Assembly: GCA_963924555.1 (NCBI GenBank)
Contig: OZ004583.1
Span: 992,001-1,056,000, forward strand
Reading direction: 5' to 3'
From: Crambe crambe
Lineage: Eukaryota > Porifera > Demospongiae > Poecilosclerida > Crambeidae
Length of the DNA: 64,000 bases
The notes beneath the pieces were generated by a model, which saw nothing but the letters and a program-made list of their open reading frames with translations, made no database searches and was not told the origin of the DNA. The translations under genes and the position numbers were made by a program. Below are positions 96-61,452 of this stretch, one piece after another (within the stretch, counting starts at the first letter, position 1; each line of letters starts with the position of its first letter).

Positions 96-306
96 TCTTT
101 GCATCCATCAAGTACTGTGGCTGCTCCATCCTGCAGTTGGGACAAGGCTTCCCTTTGCCATGTTTATTTAGACAATTTTGACAGAATAGCCTGCCACACT
201 CTCCATGCTGCCATGGGTCTCTAGCTATTGCTAAACAGATCAAACACTTTAGAGCATCATCTGGTTCAGACACAAAATTACACTCATACCCAGAACAAGC
301 AGCCAT
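96..306 (-). CDS. RING exon of a third RING-TRAF(-FReD?) gene (RTF0), partial
   Basis: This is a 211-nt first exon. It begins at an ATG at 306 and ends at a GTAAGT donor (90-95), so the rest of the gene lies left of the window. It encodes a RING-type finger with Cys pairs CLIC, CGRLFC, CQNC and CPNC, and is closely related to the first exons at 9589-9811 and 47160-47382. The 3n+1 length matches those exons, so the same splice phase into a TRAF zinc-finger exon is expected. As in the other copies, the usual RING His after the third Cys is Arg (CGR instead of CGH). It is four codons shorter at the N terminus than its paralogs. Whether this copy also ends in a fibrinogen domain cannot be seen here. 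Confidence 0.75.
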
Positions 307-6814: not shown

Positions 6815-7529
6815 GCCTCTTTTTTCCTTTTTTTGAGGGGCGGGGGAAAAAGAGAGCCTGATATCCACTGTTTGCGCATGCACCAGTTTTTCCCAGAAAT
6901 CTGGGAATCAGGATATCACTCGGATATTTCAGCTACACGATCGTCATAATTAATGGGCGTGGTCGCACAACTAGTAGAATGCTGCATGCTAGCTATAGTT
7001 TTACTCGTGCTCCTTTGCTGCTGCTCTTCTTTCTCCTTGGAGGAACTTGGCATTCCCGAAGAAGGAAAAATACACGCTGCTGTCACGATGGGAAGGATGT
7101 TTCTGTTTGTCTACCAAAGTGGTTATAAAAAGATCAGTTCTACCAGACTCTCCCCTTCATGATGATGCTGTTGAAGCGTAGTGCAGTACTGGTTGCCTCT
7201 CTACTAGTTGCTCTGATCATAAGATGTAGATATATGCTCTGATGATCGACCAACGATGTTTTGGCCAGTACTACCTCACTACATCTGCCAGTCTTAGATC
7301 AGATAGCCTTCTCTTCTGTGCCCCTGAAGCCCTTGTTCCTTCTAATGCCCTGGAGGATCTAAGTATTCCCGGAATAGTACGACATCATGCGATTGCTAGC
7401 GCTTCTCGACGTCAAAACTTGTCATTGCATGTGCGTTTATTAATTATATAATTCCAAAATTGGCGCATACACAAACAGTGGATACCAGGCTCTCTTTTTC
7501 CCCATCCCCCAAAAAAGGAAAAAAGAGGC
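6815..7529. mobile_element. 715-bp element with about 70-bp terminal inverted repeats
   Basis: Bases 6815-6884 (starting GCCTCTTTTTTCC) and 7460-7529 are close inverted copies of each other. The interior has short frames only; one of 69 codons on plus (6953-7162) is broken by a 10-bp deletion in the duplicate copy, so it is probably not a conserved gene. It sits 77 bp beyond the RTF1 stop codon. The whole element is present in the same place near RTF2 (44437-45141), so insertion preceded the duplication. Confidence 0.7.
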
Positions 7530-7605: not shown

Positions 7606-9811
7606 TTATGTGATATTATTTTCACACCTCTTGGGTCGTATCTTCATCTGTACTTTAGTGTAATGGAGGTAATGGGATCCATTATACCAAGAAAGTCTGT
7701 TAGAACCAGGTGAAACAACTCTGCCATCTTCTGGAGTATGCAGTACATACTTTCCATTGAGATTCGAGTGAAAACAGGCATTGTGCCACCAGGCTCCTCC
7801 GGATACTGCAGCACAGTTACGAATCAATGCGTCATTGTCATGATCTCGAGTGCTGAAAGGTCTTCCATTTTGATAGGCCATTGAATCATGTTTACCTCCC
7901 ACTCCCCTCGCTTGTCCAATGGTCAATCGATAATTAGTTTCAGCCCCACCCACTCTGAAGAGCTGGTAGGTCCAGACTTCAGTAGGTTCTGTTCCATTCC
8001 CAAGTTCGATACGCAGTTCCATGTCCTCTTGTGTGGTGAGGCAATGAATCTTCTCCAGTCCGTACCAAAATTCTCCCTCCAGATCTCCAAAGCCACTCAC
8101 ATAGTCAGTCCAATTGCGATAGAAATTGACAGAGCCATTGATCCTACGCTGGATGACCAACCACTTTCCTCCGTCTGTTTCCATGTCACAACGAGCAAAT
8201 AGATTCATGTTGCCTGCTTGAAAACTTGAAGTAACATTGCAGACATCCACTATTTCATAGCTGCCAGAATTTGCTGTTGGCACTAATTCCTTTACCTACA
8301 ACATTTAAGGATCCACATTAATTTTTAATATCATACATGTAGCTACTTGTGATCGTAGCTGTATACATACCTGGCAACAGTCACGGAATCCAAGAATAGA
8401 ATCTTTCTTCAGTGAAGTGTTTTCTTTGTTGTTGTTGTAGAAGTAAAAAGACAACAACAAAATACCAATAAACAGCAAAATAGAACCATTCCTCCTTAAC
8501 TGGACCACCATATTCTCACTCTCTCTCCGAAACTGAACTGCCATATCCTTGGCCTCTTTCCTTAACTCGGCAACCATATCCTTACTCTCTCTCTTTAATT
8601 CAGCAACCATATCCTTATTCTCTCTCTTTAACTCGGCAGCCATATCCTTACTCTCTCTCCTTAACTCAGCAGCCATATCTCTCTTTAACTCAGCAGCCAT
8701 ATCCTTATTCTGTCTCCTTAATTCTGTAGCCATATTCTTACTCTCTCTCAACTCGGTAGCCATATTGTTACTCTCTTGCAATTGAACCATAGTGTTGAGA
8801 ACCTGATGGAAATGTGACTTATCATCCTGCTCATGTGCTCCCATATCTTTTCTTTTCATCTTCATATTACACCCGATCCTCTCATACTTGCATGATATCA
8901 CAGTGTGTGCACAGTCGTTTTCAAGATGCTGTTTTATCTCGGCACGTTGCATGCTATCAGGACAGTCAGGATTAGGGCAAGGAACTGATTTCTTTTCACA
9001 AATGTCATCATGAATGTCCGTTATGTTGGCATATGTATCCTTCTTTCCACAATACTGACATTTGTAAGCTCTGTTCACACACTGTTCTGTTAAATGTTTC
9101 TCCAAATCTTTCCTCGATATCATCCGTACTTCATTGTCTTCTTTGCACTTCTTGGGGCAGGGAGTTTTGCAGTTCATAATATGTTCCTCTAGTGTGTCAA
9201 CAGTTCCTTCCCATCCACATCCTTCCTTAGCATAATCACATTTGACACGGAGAGCATTAATTTCTCTTTTACCTAGTGAGTAATATATTGTTGAGCGTAT
9301 ATTACTAAGAGAATGGACTAGAACCCATAGCTAGATGAAGGGTAGCTACTATCCTACTATAACTTTAAGAAGAGGCTCATATTTAGCTACTCTCAAAAGG
9401 CTAGCTGCTATGATAACACCTTGGCTAATTGCTTCAAGGTAAGCTGCCTTAAATTCTTTTTTAGTAGGCAGCCTTTAATTACTTACTTAAGCATAGTGGT
9501 TCTCCCCCTCCCCCCACATACACATCACACGGGATCATGTTGTTGCACACGGTCCTGTGGTGTGACAAGTTTCACTTCTCTGACTTACTCTTTGCATCCA
9601 TCAAGTACAGTGGCTGCTCCATCCTGCAGTTGGGACAAGGCTTCCCTTTGCCATGTTTATTTAGGCAACTTTGACAGAATAGCCTGCCACACTTCCCATG
9701 CAGCCATGGGTCTCTAGCTACTGCTAAACAGATCAAACACTTTAGAGCATCATCTGGTTCAGACACAAAGTTACTCTCGTACCCAGAACTAGTAACTTGG
9801 TTAGAGGCCAT
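7606..9811 (-). CDS. RTF1: RING-TRAF zinc finger-coiled coil-TM-fibrinogen domain receptor
   Basis: Three exons join in frame: 9589-9811 (RING), 8371-9272 (zinc fingers, coiled coil, membrane segment) and 7606-8295 (FReD), giving 604 aa. RING Cys are at residues 25, 28, 41, 46, 49, 59 and 62, with Arg43 where His is usual. TRAF-type fingers span about 84-221. A repeat of the type KDMAAELKRES (11 residues) runs about 234-335. One membrane segment (ILLFIGILLLSFYFY) lies at about 339-353, with RR just before it favouring a cytoplasmic N terminus. A short linker ends GFRDCCQ (375), the same junction as exon 1 of the secreted genes. The FReD (376-604) keeps DHDND and CFHSNLNGKY. The MATH/TRAF-C domain that usually follows a TRAF coiled coil is absent, replaced by the membrane segment and FReD. 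Start chosen at MASNQ by homology with the other copies; an in-frame Met at 9856 is possible. RING-TRAF signalling and ubiquitin ligation are inferred. Confidence 0.85.
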
Positions 9812-10526
9812 GTTTAGGGGGTGGTACAGGTCTGGTTGGCAGAGTGAGTGACCCACCCCTTTATTGGGTTGCTCTTACATAACATATTCATTAATGCTTT
9901 ATGGTAGCTGTGGTTATTGTGTATGATGCGAGTTGTCAATTGTTTTATTATTGACTCAGAATGGCATTACCCTTCTTTACCTTAGCTATGTGTTTCATAT
10001 GTTTATTCAAGGTTTGCAGCACTTCAACTGATACACTGAAATGCATCTTTCAAGTACTTAATGGATCATGATAAGTCAGGAATGCCCCAAACTGCATTTC
10101 TAAGTCTACTGTGATTAAGTGGTGGTTCCTAGGTTCCTATCTTCCAGCTGATTCAGGAAGACTGTTCCTATAAATGTCCAGACCCAGTTATCACTATTCA
10201 TCATCTAGAAAATTCACGCTTGTTCAGAGCCACCACCTTAGAGTTAGGAAGCCTCTTCTGTCAGGATATAATTATATGTCTTCATGTAGCTACCATCTTT
10301 AAGGTAGTAACAGAAGTAAAACCATAACTCATAAGTAAACCGCAGCCCGTAAACTTAACTAATTTTACCCAGGTACACAACTGATCTCCAACTAAGTGTT
10401 ATGAGAAGCAGTAATTAATAAGCTGCAAAGGATTAAAGCACACTGAGCACACTGATTAAACTTGTATATATAGTTGGGGACGAGGCTATAGTTGGTACAC
10501 ACCTAATAGTTATTATTTAAGAAATT
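9812..10526. other. RTF1 5' flank and intergenic
   Basis: No clear TATA box precedes RTF1, unlike the secreted genes. The sequence is shared with the RTF2 flank (47383-48079). No gene seen. Confidence 0.5.
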
Positions 10527-11382
10527 TTATTTGCAAGTACTAGTAGCACTGACGCATCTTTTTGGACGTATCTTCATCTGGACTTTTGTGAAGTAGAGAT
10601 ACCGTGACCCATTGTGCCAACTAGGCCTATGTGTTTGAATAGGAGCATCGTACGGTCCATTAAAGTTAGATCTGAAACAGCCGTGGTACCACCAAGCAGC
10701 TCTGATACGTCTAGCACAGTTGTTACTTGCATTATCACGATCTGGAGTGCTGAAAGGTCTCCCATTATGATAGGCCATTGGATCAAATGTACTTCCCACT
10801 CCCTTGAACTGTCCAACGGTCAGCTGGTAGTTTATTTCAGCCCCACCCACTTTGAACAGTTGATATGTCCAGACTATGAATGGTTCTGTCCCATTCCCAA
10901 TCTTGATACGCAGTTCCACGTCCTCTCGTGTGGTGAGACAGTGAATCTTTTCAGTCCGTACCAAAATTCTCCCTCCAGATCTCCAAAGCCACTCACATAG
11001 TCAGTCCAATTGTGATTGAAGTCAACAGAGCCATTGATCCTACGCTGGATGACCAACCACTTTCCTCCATCTATCTCCATGTCACAACGAGCAAATAATT
11101 TCAAATTGCCTGTTCGAAAGCTGGAAGCAACATTGCAGACATCTGCTATTTCATAACTGCCAGAATCTGCAGGTGGAAATAGCTCTTTGATCTAGCATAG
11201 AAGATAATGATCCATTATCCCAAACACTGAGAATTCATTAGCCTTATTATTACCTGACAGCAGTACAACTTCCTCTCAAAGTTGTCAGATCTTGTAGCAA
11301 CCTTTGGTAGTTAGTAGCACATGGGAACACCTTGTGCATGGGCAAGAAGGAAAGTTGCAATAACAATGCTGAGAATTTCCAT
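10527..11382 (-). pseudogene. FReD pseudogene (F11-type) with frameshift and broken exon 1
   Basis: Exon 2 (10527-11191) is nearly complete. A single C is missing near 10951 (CTTTTCAGTCC instead of CTTTTCCAGTCC), shifting the frame at FWYGL. Exon 1 (ATG at 11382) has lost six bases around GTTCCCACTAAC, so it stops shortly after the signal peptide, and also the segment encoding the stalk before DCCQ. Two independent lesions make a pseudogene call safe. The related copy at 37161 is intact and the one at 48080 carries different lesions. A TATA box remains at about 11456-11464. Confidence 0.85.
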
Positions 11383-11989
11383 GGTGGTAGTGACCATCTA
11401 TCTACACCAGCAAAAGAATATCTGTGCTGTGAGTTAAATACTTGACTCCTTGACTCTTTTTATAGTTTCAACCTGGCCACCCTGGCATCACAATTCCGAC
11501 CTTTACTTATGAATGTTATTTTAACTAAATGGTGCATTAACCCTGATAGCTATTATAGCTTTGATCTCCAACAAAATGAATATCCATATAATTATTATGT
11601 GTATGCATGTGCAGCATGCTGTTGTTTGCTTGTCATTATTAATTAAGCTGCAACTACAAATGTATAGTCACTGTATTATTTTGCGCACTGCATGCTACAT
11701 CTTTTGGGCATATCTTCATTTGGACTTTATAAAGTAGAAATATTGTGAGCACTGGAAGCATCACACTATGCATTCAAGTTATACCTGAAAAATAGTTGCA
11801 GTAACACATGAAAGTCATAATATATTGGGGGGTATACTTCACTCCCAGATAATATAGTTCTAGAGAATGCTCAACTGAACATAGCAGCAGTAATGGAACA
11901 CCTATGGTAATCATGCAAATTGAGATTATGTCATATTCAGTACTCATGTGCATACACATACGTTTGTTTGGTCCAGAGAATCTCTCTTC

Positions 11990-13117: not shown

Positions 13118-13907
13118 TCATTTGCAAGTACTGGTACTGCTGCATCTCTTTGGACGTATCTTCATTTGAATCTTTGTGAACTTGACATATCTCGATCCAT
13201 TGTACCAGTGAGAATAAGAATTTGTATAGTTGGAATTCAGGTGGGCACAATCATTGTGCCACCATGCACCTGCTCTCTCTACAACACAGTTCCTCTTCTG
13301 GCATCCTTATCACGGTCTGGAGTGCTGAAAGACGCTCCATTATTATGAGCCATTACATCAAATGTACTTCCCACTCCCTGGCCTTGTCCAATGGGTAGTC
13401 GGTAGTTGGTTTCAGCCCCACCCACTTTGAAAAGTTGATAGGTCTAAACAATGGATGGTTCAAGCCCATTTCCAAGTTCAATATGCAGTTCCACATTCTC
13501 TCGTGTGGTGAGGCAGTGGATTTTTTCCAGTCCGTACCAAAATTCTCCCTCCGGATCTCCAAAGCCACTCACATAGTCAATCCAATTGCGATTGAAGTCA
13601 ACAGAGCCATTGATCCTACGCTGGATGACTAGCTGTCACAACGATTAGCTGCCTCTTTAATCTAGCATAGAAGATAATGATCTATTATACATTCTATAAA
13701 GGTCAAGGTAGTCTTTGGTTCCAGAGGATTTTGGAGAATTAATTAGTTATAGCTACACACTATACCTGACAGCAGTCATGGAATCCAGCACCAGAACAAC
13801 TTCCTCTTAAAGTTGTCAGATCTTGCAGCAACTTTTGGTAGTTAGTAGCACAGTTAGTGGGAACGGGCAAGAAGGAAAATTGCGATAAAAATGCTGAGAA
13901 TACTCAT
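13118..13907 (-). pseudogene. FReD pseudogene with shared old lesions
   Basis: Exon 2 remnant is 13118-13661. An in-frame stop replaces the conserved Trp of VWTY (GTTTAGACC), small indels follow, and CDMETD..GKW is deleted. Exon 1 (13766-13907) has lost 11 bp between LLA and VPT, so the frame stops. The copy at 39802-40602 has the same lesions, so the gene was dead before the block was duplicated. Confidence 0.85.
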
Positions 13908-21867: not shown

Positions 21868-22792
21868 ATGAGTGTTCTCAGCATTGTCATTGCAACTTTC
21901 CTTCTTGCCCATGCACAAGGTGTTCCCACTAACTGTGCTACTAACTACCAAAGGTTGCTGCGAAATCTGACAACTTTGAGAGAAAGTTGTTCTGGTGCTG
22001 GATTCCATGACTGCTGTCAGGTAGCTATGTGTAGCTATAACTAATTAATTCTCAAGAATCCTCTGCAACCAAAGACTACCTTGACCTTTATAGAATGTAG
22101 TGTTTGGAATAATAGATCGCTCTCTTCTACGTTAGATTAAAGAGGTATTTCCATCAGCTGATTCTGGCAGCTATGAAATAACAGATGTCTGCAATGTCGT
22201 CCCAAGTTTTCAAGCAGGCTTAGCAAAGCTATTTGCTCGTTGTGACATGGAGACAGATAGAGGAAAGTGGTTGGTCATCCAGCGTAGGATCAATGGCTCT
22301 GTCAACTTCTATCGCAATTGGACCGACTATGTGAGTGGCTTTGGAGATCTGGAGGGAGAATTTTGGTACGGACTGGAAAAAATCCACTGCCTCACCACAC
22401 GAGAGAACATGGAACTGCGTATTGAACTTGGGAATGGACCCAAACCATCCATTGTTTGGACCTACCAACTGTTCAAAGTGGGTGGGGCTGAAACCAACTA
22501 TCGACTAACCATTGGACAAGGACAGGAAGTGGGAGGTACATTTGATGCAATGGCCCATAACAATGGAGCATCTTTCAGCACTCCAGACCGTGATAATGAT
22601 AACGATGGTGGCAACTGTGCTGTAGAGAGAGAAGGTGCATGGTGGCACAATGCTTGTTCTTATGCCCACCTGAATTCCAACTATACATCTAACTATCCTG
22701 ACTGGTACAATGGATCAAGATGGATCAAGGTCACAAAGATTCAAATGAAGATACGTCCAAAGAGATGCAGCAGTACCAGTACTTGCAAATGA
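21868..22792 (+). CDS. Secreted fibrinogen-domain protein F5 (only plus-strand copy)
   Basis: Exon 1 21868-22020 (51 aa; stalk LRESCSGAGFHDCCQ), intron 115 nt, exon 2 22136-22792 (218 aa plus stop); 269 aa. The pocket reads NCAVEREGAWWHNAC, LNSNYTSNYPDWYNGS, and WIKVTKIQ where others have F before TK. Framework METDRGKW. It lies inside the inverted segment and kept its whole promoter, so inversion need not have silenced it. Confidence 0.9.
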
Positions 22793-45217: not shown

Positions 45218-47382
45218 TTATGTGATATTCTTTTCACACCTCTTGGGTCGTATCTTCATCTGTACTTTAGTGTAATGGAGGTAATGGGATCCATTATACC
45301 AAGAAAGTCTGTTAGCACCAGGTGAAACAACTCCGCCATCTTCTGGAGTATGCAGTACATACTTTCCATTGAGATTTGAGTGAAAACAGCTATAGTGCCA
45401 CCAGGCTCCTCCGTATGATGCAGCACAGTTACCATCATTGTCACGATCTCGAGTGCTGAAAGGTCTTCCATTTTGATTGGCCATTGCATCATGTGTACCT
45501 CCCACTCCCCTGGCCTGTCCAATGGTCAATTGATAATTAGTTTCAGCCCCACCCACTCTGAAGAGCTGGTAGGTCCAGACTTCAGTAGGTTCTGTCCCAT
45601 TCCCAAGTTCAATACGTAGTTCCACGTCATCTCGTGTGGTGAGGCAGTGGATCTTTTCTAGTCCGTACCAAAATTCTCCCTCCAGATCTCCAAAGCCGTA
45701 CATATAGTCGGTCCAATTGCAATAGAAGTTGACAGAGCCATTGATCCTACGCTGGATGACCAACCACTTTCCTCCGTCTGTCTCCATGTCACAACGAGCA
45801 AATAGATTCATGTTGCCTGCTTGAAAACTTGAAGTAACATTGCAGACATCCACTATTTCATAGCTGCCAGAATTAGCTGACTCCTTTACCTACAACATTT
45901 AAGGATCCACATTAATTTTTAATATCATACATGTAGCTACTTGTGATCATAGCTGTATACATACCTGGCAGCAGTCACGGAATCCAAGAATAGAATCTTT
46001 CTTCAGTGAAGTGTTTTCTTTGTTGTAGAAGTAAAAAGACAATAAAAAAATACCAATAAACAGCAAAATAGAACCATTTCTCCTTAACTGGACCACCATA
46101 TTCTCACTCTCTCTCCGAAACTGAACCTCTTTCCTTAACTTGGTAGCCATTTCCTTACTCTCTCTCTTTAACTCGGCAGCCATATCCTTACTCTCTCTCC
46201 TTAACTCAGCAGCCATATTGTTACTCTCTCTCCTCAACTTGACTGCCATATCGTCACTTTCTTTCTTCAGTAGAGCTATATTCTCAGCGGCTGACTGTAG
46301 ATTGTCTTGCAATTTGACCATAATAGTATTGAGAGCCTGGTGGAAATGTGCCTTATCATCCTGCTCATGTGCTCCAATATCTTTTCTCTTCATCTTCATA
46401 TTACACCCAATCCTCTCGTATTTGCATGATATCACAGTGTGTGCACAGTCGTTTTCAAGATGCTGTTTTATCTCGGCACGTTGCATGCTATCAGGACAGT
46501 CAGGATTGGGGCAAGGAACTGATTTCTTTTCACATATGTCATCATGAATGTCCGTTATGTTGGCATATGTATCCTTCTTTCCACAATACCGACATTTGTA
46601 AGCTCTATTCACACACTGTTCAGTTAAATGCTTATCCAATTCTTCCCTCGATATCATCCGTACTTCATTGTCTTCTTTGCATTTGTTGGGGCATGGAGCT
46701 TTGCAGTTGTTCATAATATGTTCCTCTAGTGTGCCAACAGTTCCTTCCCATCCACATCCTTTCTTAGCATAATCACATTTGACACGGAGAGCTTTAATTT
46801 CTCTTTTACCTAGTGAGTAATTATTATTGAGTGTAAGAGAATGGACTAGAACCTGTAGCTAGATGGAAAGTTGCAGTTAAAGGGTAGCTAGCTATACTAT
46901 CCTACTATAACTTTAAGAAGAAGCTCATACTTAGCTATACTCTCAAAAGGCTAGCTGCTATGATAATAACTTGGCTAATTGCTTCAAGGTAAGCTGCCTT
47001 AAATTCTTTTTTAGTAACAAAGGTTAGTTGGCATGGTTGGTTGGCAGCCTTTAATTACTTACTTAAACATAGTGGCCCTCCGCACACACATACACACCAC
47101 ACAGATCATGTTGTTGCACACAGTCCTGTGATGTGACAAGTTTCACTTCTCTGACTTACTCTTTACATCCATCAAGTACTGTGGCTGCTCCATCCTGCAG
47201 TTGGGACAAGGCTTCACTTTGCCATGTTTATTTAGACAACTTTGACAGAATAGCCTGCCACACTCCCCATGCTGCCATGGGTCTCTAGCTACTGCTAAAC
47301 AGATCAAACACTTCAGAGCATCATCTGGTTCAGACACAAAATTACTCTCGTACCCAGAACTAGTAACTTGGTTAGAGGCCAT
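45218..47382 (-). CDS. RTF2: RING-TRAF zinc finger-coiled coil-TM-fibrinogen domain receptor
   Basis: Exons 47160-47382, 45965-46809 and 45218-45889 join in the same phases as RTF1 and give 579 aa. The RING again has CGR for CGH. TRAF fingers are nearly identical to RTF1. The coiled coil differs: it starts with a non-repetitive KLQDNLQSAAENIALLKKE segment and has fewer 11-residue units, one cut short (RKEVQFRRES). Membrane segment ILLFIGIFLLSFYFY, then GFRDCCQ. The FReD lacks three residues near its start (VKESANSG against VKELVPTANSG in RTF1), has an added Cys (FYCNW), MYGFGD for VSGFGD, and DRDND with CFHSNLNGKY kept. An in-frame run upstream of MASNQ (to 47550) is probably 5' flank. Confidence 0.85.
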
Positions 47383-48079
47383 GTTTAGGGGGTGGTACAG
47401 GTCTGATTGGCAGAGTGAGTAACCCACCCCTTTATTGGGTTGCTCACAGTACACAGTGTATTCATTACATATCAACATATTCATTAATTCTTTATGGTAG
47501 CTATGGTTATTGTTTATGATGCGAGTTGTCAATTGCATCTCATGTTTCATGTTTACTCAAGGTTTGCAGCACTTCAACTGATACACTGAAATGCATCTTT
47601 CAAGTACTTAATGGATCATGAGGGAGTTGATAAGTCAGGAATGCCCCAAACTGCATTTCTAAGTCTACTGTGATTAAGTGGTGGTTCCTAGGTTCCTATC
47701 TTCCAGCTGATTCAGGAGTTCAATTGAGACTGTTCCTATAAATGTCCAGACCAAGTTATCGCTATTCATCATCTAGAAAGTTTGCGTTTGTTCAGAGTCA
47801 CCACCTTAGAGTTAGGAAGCCTCTTCTGTCAGGATATAGTCTTCATGTAGCTACCATCTTTAAGGTAGTAACAGAAGTAAGAACCATAACTCATAAGTAA
47901 ACTGCAGCCCGTAAACTTAACTTATTTTACCCAGGTACACAACTGATCTCCAACTAAAATTGATGGATATAAGTGTTATATTAAGAAGCAGTAATTAAAT
48001 AAGCTGCAAAGGATTAAAGCACACTGAGCACACTGATTAAACTTGTATATATAGTTGGTACACACAAAATAGTTAAATT
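47383..48079. other. RTF2 5' flank and intergenic
   Basis: Duplicate of 9812-10526. No TATA box or gene recognised. Confidence 0.45.
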
Positions 48080-50227: not shown

Positions 50228-51103
50228 TTATTTGCAAGTACTGGTACTGACACTGCATCTCTTTGGACGTATCTTCATTTGAATCTTAGTGAACTTGACA
50301 TATCTTGATCAGTTAGGAAAAGAAGATCTATAGTTGCCATTGAGTCTGGCAAAAGTACAACCGTTGTGCCACCACGCACCTCCTTCTGTTACAACACAGT
50401 TTCTACCCCTACGATCATTATCACAGTCTGGAGTGCTGAAAGATGCTCCATTGCTATGGGCCATTGCATTATATGCACTTCCGACTCCCTGGCCTTGTCC
50501 AATGGTTAGTTGGTAGTTGGTTTCAGCCCCACCCACTTTGAACAGTTGGTAGGTCCACATGGTTTGGGTCCATTCCCAAGTTCAATACGCAGTTCCACAT
50601 CCTCTCGTGTGGTGAGACAGTGAATCTTTTCCAGTCCGTACCAAAATTCTCCCTCCAGATCTCCAAAGCCACTCACATAGTCAGTCCAATTGTGATAGAA
50701 GTTGACAGAGCCATTGATCCTACGCTGGATAACCAACCACTTTCCTCCATCTGTCTCCATGTCACAATGAGCAAATAACTTCACATTGCCTGTTTGAAAA
50801 CTTGGAGCAACATTGCAGACATCTGCTATTTCATAACTGCCAGAATTCACAGGTGGAAATATCTCTTTGATCTAGAATATATTAGCTAATTACAAACACT
50901 ACATTCTATACTCTGATTTTGGAGAATTCATTAGCCTTAGCTGCACATACCTGACAGCAGTCACGGAATCCAGCACCAGAACAACTTCCTCTCAAAGTTG
51001 TCAGATCTTGCAGCAACTTTTGGTAGTTAGTAGCACAGTTAGTGGGAACACCTTGTGCATGGGCAAGAAGGAAAGTTGCAAGAACAATGCTGAGAATACT
51101 CAT
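50228..51103 (-). pseudogene. FReD pseudogene (F4-like pocket)
   Basis: Exon 1 (50951-51103) is intact. Exon 2 (50228-50871) has a small frameshifting deletion at IVWTYQ (GGTCCACATGG) and a 9-bp deletion producing a stop after SSFPN. The pocket NCVVTEGGAWWHNGC is close to F4. TATA at 51179-51186. Confidence 0.85.
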
Positions 51104-61028: not shown

Positions 61029-61452
61029 GTACTTCCCACTCCCTTGAACTGTCCAATGGTCAGCTGGTAGTTGGTTTCAGCTCCACCCACTTTGAACAGT
61101 TGGTAGGTCCAAACAATGGATGGTTTGGGCCCATTCCCAAGTTCAATACGCAGTTCCACATCCTCTTGTGCAGTGAGACAGTGAATCTTTTCCAGTCTGT
61201 ACCAAAGTTCTCCCTCCAGATCTCCAAAGCCACTCACATAGTCAGTCCAATTGCAATAAAAGTTAACAGAGCCATTGATCCTATGCTGGATGACCAACCA
61301 GTCTCCACGTCACAATAACCTCACACTGCCCATTTGAAAACTTGCAGCAACATTGCAAGCAGCAACATTTGGTAGTTAGTAGCACAGTTAGTGGGAACAC
61401 CTTGTGCATGGGCAAGAAGGAAAGTTGCAAGAACAATGCTGAGAATACTCAT
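61029..61452 (-). pseudogene. Truncated FReD joined to a partial exon 1
   Basis: FReD from GVGST back to VIQHRING is open, but the pocket and C terminus are missing. A deletion at GGKW and further losses fuse what is left to the 5' part of exon 1 (ATG at 61452), with no intron or DCCQ. A second scrap of exon 1 (ATGGATTTTTTTAGC) is at about 61520-61576. Confidence 0.8.

Follow-up and report, generated by a model that had tools for sequence, protein, structure and literature searches.

TRAF proteins are known as adaptors that are recruited by receptors, and members of the family, TRAF6 especially, combine a RING, serial TRAF-type zinc fingers and a coiled coil with a MATH (TRAF-C) domain. Fibrinogen-related domains (FReDs) occur in ficolins and tachylectin-5A and at the C-terminus of type II receptors of the FIBCD1 type, in which the domain lies past a single membrane segment. 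The coiled coil of FIBCD1-type receptors is placed between the membrane and the FReD, and to our knowledge FIBCD1 contains neither a RING nor TRAF fingers. Ectodomain, membrane helix and RING are united in one chain in the PA-TM-RING E3 ligases (e.g., RNF13) and in RNF43/ZNRF3; these ligases, however, are of type I, with another ectodomain, no TRAF fingers and the opposite domain order. The genome of the sponge Crambe crambe (143 Mb, 119 contigs) was found to harbor a gene, RTF1, whose predicted product can be set beside each of these systems. It is located in the window analyzed here (the whole stretch of 64,000 nt, C5:992001-1056000), and plain positions below are those of the window. As in the TRAF family, zinc fingers and a coiled coil are present, but the MATH domain is missing, a membrane segment and a FReD are found, and the RING-type finger at the N-terminus is without its canonical His. 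The C-terminal FReD past a single predicted membrane segment is shared with FIBCD1-type receptors, whereas the coiled coil comes before the membrane segment, on the side of the RING. The FReD is of the same kind as that of ficolins, tachylectin-5A and the secreted proteins encoded by the neighboring genes.

RTF1, referred to as copy B, is encoded on the minus strand in three exons. Exon 1 (9589..9811) carries the ATG and a RING-type finger (CLIC...CGRLFCQSC...CPNC) and ends in phase 1, as established by sequence rebuild, Pfam and the alignment to TRAF6. It is followed by intron 1 (9273..9588, 316 nt, donor GTAAGT, acceptor CTAG) and by exon 2 (8371..9272), which according to sequence and Pfam encodes the TRAF zinc fingers, the coiled coil, the membrane segment and the residues GFRDCCQ and ends in phase 0. 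Intron 2 (8296..8370, 75 nt, donor GTATGT, acceptor TGTAG) precedes exon 3 (7606..8295), which contains the FReD and the stop. Both introns are of the GT-AG type, and the exons joined in phases 1 and then 0 give a product of 604 aa. The same three-exon model had been proposed by the sequence-only reading, and its coordinates and intron borders proved exact on rebuild. The join of exons 1 and 2 is further supported by the TRAF6 alignment (5vo0), which runs across their border. It is very probable that the three exons encode one protein.

The best solved relatives of the TRAF half were TRAF6, TRAF5 and TRAF4, with TRAF6 (5vo0) aligned over residues 8-167, a stretch that takes in the RING and the first zinc fingers, at an E-value of 1.6e-12. 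The zf-TRAF match (PF02176; 8833..9012, C5:1000833-1001012, minus strand) covered residues 162-221 with an E-value of 9.7e-19 and 68.3 bits against a cut-off of 27. Four RING-type Pfam models matched the amino-terminal finger (4.8e-5 to 4e-4), of which only zf-C3HC4 scored above its cut-off (21.5 versus 21 bits). The canonical fourth zinc ligand, a His, is absent from the RING in all three copies of the gene described below, which read CGRLFC instead of CGHxFC. Among the 27 RINGs matched by script in the fetched pieces of the genome (the three fused genes included), CGRLFC was found in 20 and CGH in none. The three copies, like most of the other RINGs, retain a His three residues ahead of the Cys of this motif; an altered order of the ligands is possible, and an inactive RING is also possible. 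As the RING is without the canonical His, like 24 other RINGs seen, ligase activity is not to be assumed.

Residues 233-333 (8497..8799, minus strand) form a predicted coiled coil built on an 11-residue repeat, a TRAF-N-type feature whose periodicity was observed in 3/3 copies. Self-identity by lag peaked at lag 11 with values of 0.46 (B), 0.40 (A) and 0.37 (C), compared with 0.21, 0.18 and 0.13, respectively, for the next best lag among 3 to 19. A single membrane segment, GSILLFIGILLLSFYFY, was predicted at residues 337-353 (8437..8487, minus strand), where the summed free energy was -0.99 versus +9.48 for the next best stretch; in each of the three copies, one such helix scores far ahead of any other stretch. 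Seventeen residues (354-370) separate it from RDCCQ. In the carboxy-terminal half, Fibrinogen_C (PF00147) matched residues 405-597 with an E-value of 3.2e-54 and 184.5 bits against a cut-off of 22, covering profile positions 30-221 of 221. The FReD was judged complete, its N-terminal part being covered solely by Angiopoietin-2 alignment ranges. Solved relatives of the FReD reach 1.2e-45 and include FIBCD1, ficolin-2 and tachylectin-5A; the ficolin/tenascin-type DxDND stretch and the aligned cysteines are kept, and the DxDND stretch, which resembles a calcium site, and the WWxxxC region align with ficolin-2 and tenascin-R. No MATH domain was detected by Pfam in the 604 aa product, and no C5 place was present among the MATH matches listed for the genome. 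Pfam, periodicity and membrane scan thus agree with the order of RING, TRAF zinc fingers, 11-residue coiled coil, one membrane segment and FReD that had been read from the letters, the RING being only marginal.

The gene is embedded in a tandem array of two-exon secreted FReD genes that occupies positions 4000-63000 of the window, mostly on the minus strand, with one gene inverted at about 22009-22790. Each array gene consists of a signal-peptide exon ending in DCCQ, a phase-0 intron and a FReD exon, and the signal-peptide exon stands where the fused genes have their TRAF exons. In 82 kb (the window plus 10 kb and 8 kb), 27 sites were found in which DCCQ is followed by GT: three in full TRAF exons, one in a truncated copy, 18 in signal-peptide exons (the signal peptides being recognized by eye) and five in partial exons. 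By this shared DCCQ|GT, TRAF exon 2 has the same end, in the same phase, as the opening exon of the secreted genes. RDCCQ (8371..8385, minus strand) was accordingly assigned as the first residues of the FReD, carried on the TRAF exon of copy B, on the basis of DCCQ and the phase-0 donor found in the signal-peptide exons. As judged from their ranges, alignments to five Angiopoietin-2 sequences begin ahead of RDCCQ, at query residue 4-6, and extend over the border between exons 2 and 3, and RDCC looks like a part of the FReD. In the fibrinogen fold, the first cysteine of the RDCC stretch pairs with a cysteine of the RCDM stretch; as the latter is located in exon 3, exons 2 and 3 would share a disulfide.

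Some FReDs of the array are broken: that at 10527-11191 has a frame change between 10874 and 11000, and another at about 50321-50870 is split over two frames near 50570. The idea that the membrane segment is a converted FReD signal peptide was rejected. DNA around the membrane segment is unlike that of the signal-peptide exons, with clear similarity confined to the last bases ahead of the splice site, and the membrane segment is common to TRAF/MATH relatives on chromosome 8.

The genome has 81 listed FReD places, and a joined TRAF of this kind was seen in the C5 array alone. When the TRAF half was used as a tblastn query (1e-3), no such TRAF was detected in 18 regions around FReD clusters outside C5, that is, all but C21:1278845-1279369; these regions contained one distant TRAF on C1 (L031, 30% identity) with its own frame of 748 aa, ∼8 kb from the FReDs. 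For the FReD place at C21:1278845-1279369, no nearby TRAF was present among the matches listed. The genome-wide searches scored the best 150 of 388 zf-TRAF candidates and the best 109 of 410 TRAF-half candidates, and a diverged TRAF/FReD fusion elsewhere in the genome could be missed at this depth.

A search of the TRAF half against its own genome revealed two further intact copies on the same contig, A and C, at 85–86% identity; the locus noticed first is one of three. Copy C, also on the minus strand, comprises exon 1 with the RING (47160..47382), exon 2 with zinc fingers, coiled coil, membrane segment and RDCCQ (45965..46809) and exon 3 with the FReD and stop (45218..45889), giving 579 aa. 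Copy A (C5:992306-990204, minus strand) has its RING exon at 96..306, while exon 2 (C5:991787-990910) and exon 3 (C5:990839-990204) lie upstream of the window; its product is 574 aa. Splice sites and exon borders are the same in A, B and C, and all three frames (574, 604, and 579 aa) are complete. A truncated copy D (L029; C5:989864-989971) has lost the TRAF part but retains the junction, a FReD and a portion of the membrane segment; its short frame has a Met immediately ahead of the membrane segment. With the membrane segment plus junction as query, the genome yielded the three full copies, the truncated one and two weak C8 relatives (E-values of 0.0025 and 0.11).

Copies B and C belong to a larger recent duplication (flanks of 95% and 98% identity) and are therefore not fully independent; in flanks and intron 1 they differ by just 2–7%. 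The flanks of copy A show 38–46% identity to those of B and C. Intron 2 is 98.6–100% identical among the three copies, compared with 56–93% for intron 1, and is nearly identical though the FReD exon of copy A differs by more than 20% from those of B and C; either recent conversion or constraint may account for its conservation. Downstream of the copy B stop, as far as 6900, the sole AATAAA/ATTAAA is the AATAAA at 7441, situated between two inverted arms of 72 nt at 6815-7529 (81% complementary, 565 nt apart), which may represent a mobile element. Over the 400 nt that follow them downstream, copies B and C agree to 98%. Rfam gave no matches within the window.

The nearest TRAF relatives of the fused genes are found in a large array on C8, a part of a TRAF expansion on C8, C3 and other contigs with at least 150 zf-TRAF matches (best 150 of 388 candidates). 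Four C8 genes (L049, L050, L051, and L052) have zinc fingers, coiled coil and a membrane segment in the same place as the fused genes, but end in a MATH domain where the latter end in a FReD; MATH was recognized by Pfam in the first three and by a match at C8:282051-282587 in L052. In L050 (C8:273817-275580), two membrane segments were predicted with a repeat-rich stretch between them, and membrane topology thus varies within the parent group. When 23 fetched TRAF loci were placed in a tree together with the three fused copies, L050 being omitted as the same gene as L025, the four C8 membrane genes and the fused genes fell into one clade (91/94, a support below the starred level of the tree tool), inside which the fused copies grouped at 100/100. 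Eight of its rows carry a long-branch flag, and the joins of L012, L022, and L028 are doubtful. The membrane label that a script had given to L015 was judged spurious, as it marks an Ile/Leu run far down the frame, outside the clade; counting L015, the label needs two changes on the tree.

The exon-2 frames of L049, L050, and L051 also start with SLGKREI, the exon-1 frame of L052 also ends with KSKS ahead of the intron, and the exon 1/2 border looks common to the fused genes and their C8 relatives. Decayed MATH relics were observed upstream of two fused copies. That of copy C (47692..47766, minus strand; 25 aa) is 76% identical to the MATH domain of L051 by tblastn. That of copy B (NSDNWVWTFIGTV; 10140..10199, minus strand) was placed by eye and had no tblastn match at 1e-3, and a further MATH piece upstream of copy B was found by blastn at about 10008-10045 (E-value of 3.3e-5). 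In the C8 array, a MATH end is closely trailed by a RING exon, for example with MATH to 266376 and the RING exon from 266563. As judged from these comparisons, the TRAF half descends from zf-TRAF/TM/MATH genes of chromosome 8. The C8-type clade, the relics and the MATH-RING spacing suggest that part of the C8 array was duplicated onto C5, where the MATH end of the gene gave way to a FReD. Since the parents already bore a membrane segment before MATH, this segment came with the TRAF parent, and the novelty lies in the exchange of MATH for FReD. The one-piece architecture proposed from the sequence alone is supported by gene model, three copies, selection and ancestry, but its membrane segment is no innovation of the fused genes.

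Pairwise gaps between the copies were multiples of three in 31/31 cases in the exons (two in exon 1, 16 in exon 2, and 13 in exon 3) but in 5/23 cases in the introns; these counts come from plain DNA alignments and are pairwise, so that one event can count twice and they are not independent. pN/pS was below 1 in 9/9 partly overlapping tests, eight of them at p of about 0.01 or less. Between B and C it was 0.42 for the TRAF half (p 5.9e-5) and 0.40 for the FReD (p 0.0037), and between A and C it was 0.42 for the TRAF half (p 0.0014); the weakest test was that of RING plus zinc fingers between A and B (0.54, p 0.068). In the short stretch at the membrane segment and junction, dN/dS was 1.06 for A-C (40 codons), 0.24 for A-B and 0.08 for B-C. 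In contrast to the three intact fused frames, stops and frame changes interrupt the MATH relic ahead of B and C. By these measures, selection acts on both halves of the fused genes.

Copy A stands apart from B and C in its FReD. A tree was built from 19 of the 22 motif hits; three short ones were dropped, and that at 61040 is perhaps a chance motif. In this tree, B paired with C (100/99), whereas A joined the secreted genes S17619 and S24586 (98/93). Over its first 30 codons, the FReD of copy A is nearest to D (0.986; B 0.903); over codons 30-60 the identities are 0.978 to D, 0.956 to secreted genes and 0.933 to B; past codon 60 the secreted genes are nearest, and identity to B falls to 0.50 at codons 180-210. 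An 80-column scan showed the same fall in A-to-B identity from about position 8000 of B. These alignments show the copy A FReD to be a mosaic with its secreted neighbors, trees and scans being compatible with either direction of exchange. A tentative extension, which we regard as possible rather than probable, is that the one-piece TRAF receptors form a family in which recombination swaps the lectin head from the secreted array while the membrane TRAF half stays fixed.

The predicted architecture favors, with some reserve, a type II surface receptor with a signaling TRAF arm, in line with the receptor sensing a ligand outside and signaling inside that the sequence-only reading had suggested. 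The RING/TRAF-zinc-finger head would reside in the cytosol and be oligomerized by the hendecad coiled coil; one signal-anchor helix would span the membrane, with the N-terminus inside and the C-terminal FReD lectin domain outside the cell. Such a gene could have originated by duplication of a TRAF/TM/MATH gene from the C8 array into the tandem secreted-FReD array on C5, with a FReD taking the place of its MATH end at the phase-0 intron of the array, right after the first FReD residues. Binding of the FReD to a multivalent surface glycan would cluster the protein and bring the RING/zinc-finger heads together, and ubiquitin-dependent signaling may then start with no need for a TRAF to be recruited by a separate TNF-receptor or TLR. 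We infer splicing in the animal, topology, ligand, clustering and signaling of the fused proteins. The net charge over 20 residues on the N and C side of the membrane segment is +1/+1 in B, +2/+1 in A and +3/+1 in C; with near-equal positive charge on both sides, the orientation is not fixed by charge alone.

Other readings were weighed against this receptor; they partly overlap, and the weights given to them need not sum to one. The same fused protein might instead occupy an internal membrane, that of the ER or endosome, with its FReD in the lumen, and act as a TRAF-type ligase in quality control or vesicle traffic, a reading we consider rather unlikely. It would suit the short, Tyr/Phe-rich membrane segment and a parent group with MATH past the membrane segment and a variable number of such segments, which would be odd for surface receptors; the FReD, however, is close to the secreted FReDs of the array, most of that of copy A matching them, and this fits shared extracellular ligands. 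Alternatively, each locus might give two products, a membrane TRAF reading into intron 2 and a FReD made via another first exon. The exon 2 frame does continue into intron 2 for 21 extra residues and stops after DCCQVCIQLRSQVATCMILKINVDP, the intron is kept unusually well (98.6–100% versus 56–93% for intron 1), and an ATTAAA, readable in copy B at 8329 and also in C, could end the transcript ahead of the FReD. Yet the first FReD residues are encoded by exon 2 and are absent from exon 3; no other DCCQ|GT site was found from that of copy B itself up to position 13777; the 75-nt intron is too small for a signal-peptide exon of the array type; the nearest upstream frame resembling a signal peptide (11250-11459) precedes a broken FReD; and the halves are mutually in frame in three copies, all of which makes two products unlikely.

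Absence of function was considered as well. A young neutral fusion, in which gene copies came to lie beside a FReD and decay is yet to come, would accord with the 2–7% difference between B and C in flanks and intron 1, the truncated copy D without its TRAF part and the several broken FReDs of the array. Its probability appears low, since decay has reached the nearby MATH relic of B and C but none of the three fused frames, and pN/pS is below 1 in both halves. Tandem arrays are in general prone to assembly errors, but a chimeric join or other artefact is highly improbable here, as three loci are alike inside, the flanks of A are unlike those of B and C (38–46%) and a truncated fourth copy exists.

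Among the titles, abstract openings and passages covered in open PMC papers, PMC9994688 included, no TRAF/FReD protein was found (most subscription journals and all preprints lie outside this literature), which within that scope agrees with the sequence-only reading, to which no receptor of this architecture was known. The only paper there in which both Pfam names occur gives them for separate mosquito genes (PMC7755283). FReD genes and TRAFs of sponges are listed separately among genes responsive to microbial cues (PMC8242945, PMC6208332), and the FReDs of placozoans are described as mostly secreted single-FReD proteins (PMC6321704). Putative membrane-bound NLRs are mentioned for sponges (PMC12909245) and offer a parallel, a normally cytosolic sensor given a membrane segment. 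Within the literature searched, the architecture appears to be new, while its kind is known from signaling membrane lectin receptors and transmembrane E3 ligases.

If the surface receptor reading is true, a receptor carrying its own TRAF would be a shortcut from the recognition of microbes or tissue ligands to ubiquitin signaling. The TRAF/TM/MATH parents provide a stepwise path to it, with the membrane helix first and the lectin second, and the locus provides a natural setting in which to test whether secreted and membrane lectins exchange their heads. The question of whether a TRAF may serve as the cytosolic part of a receptor also becomes directly testable.
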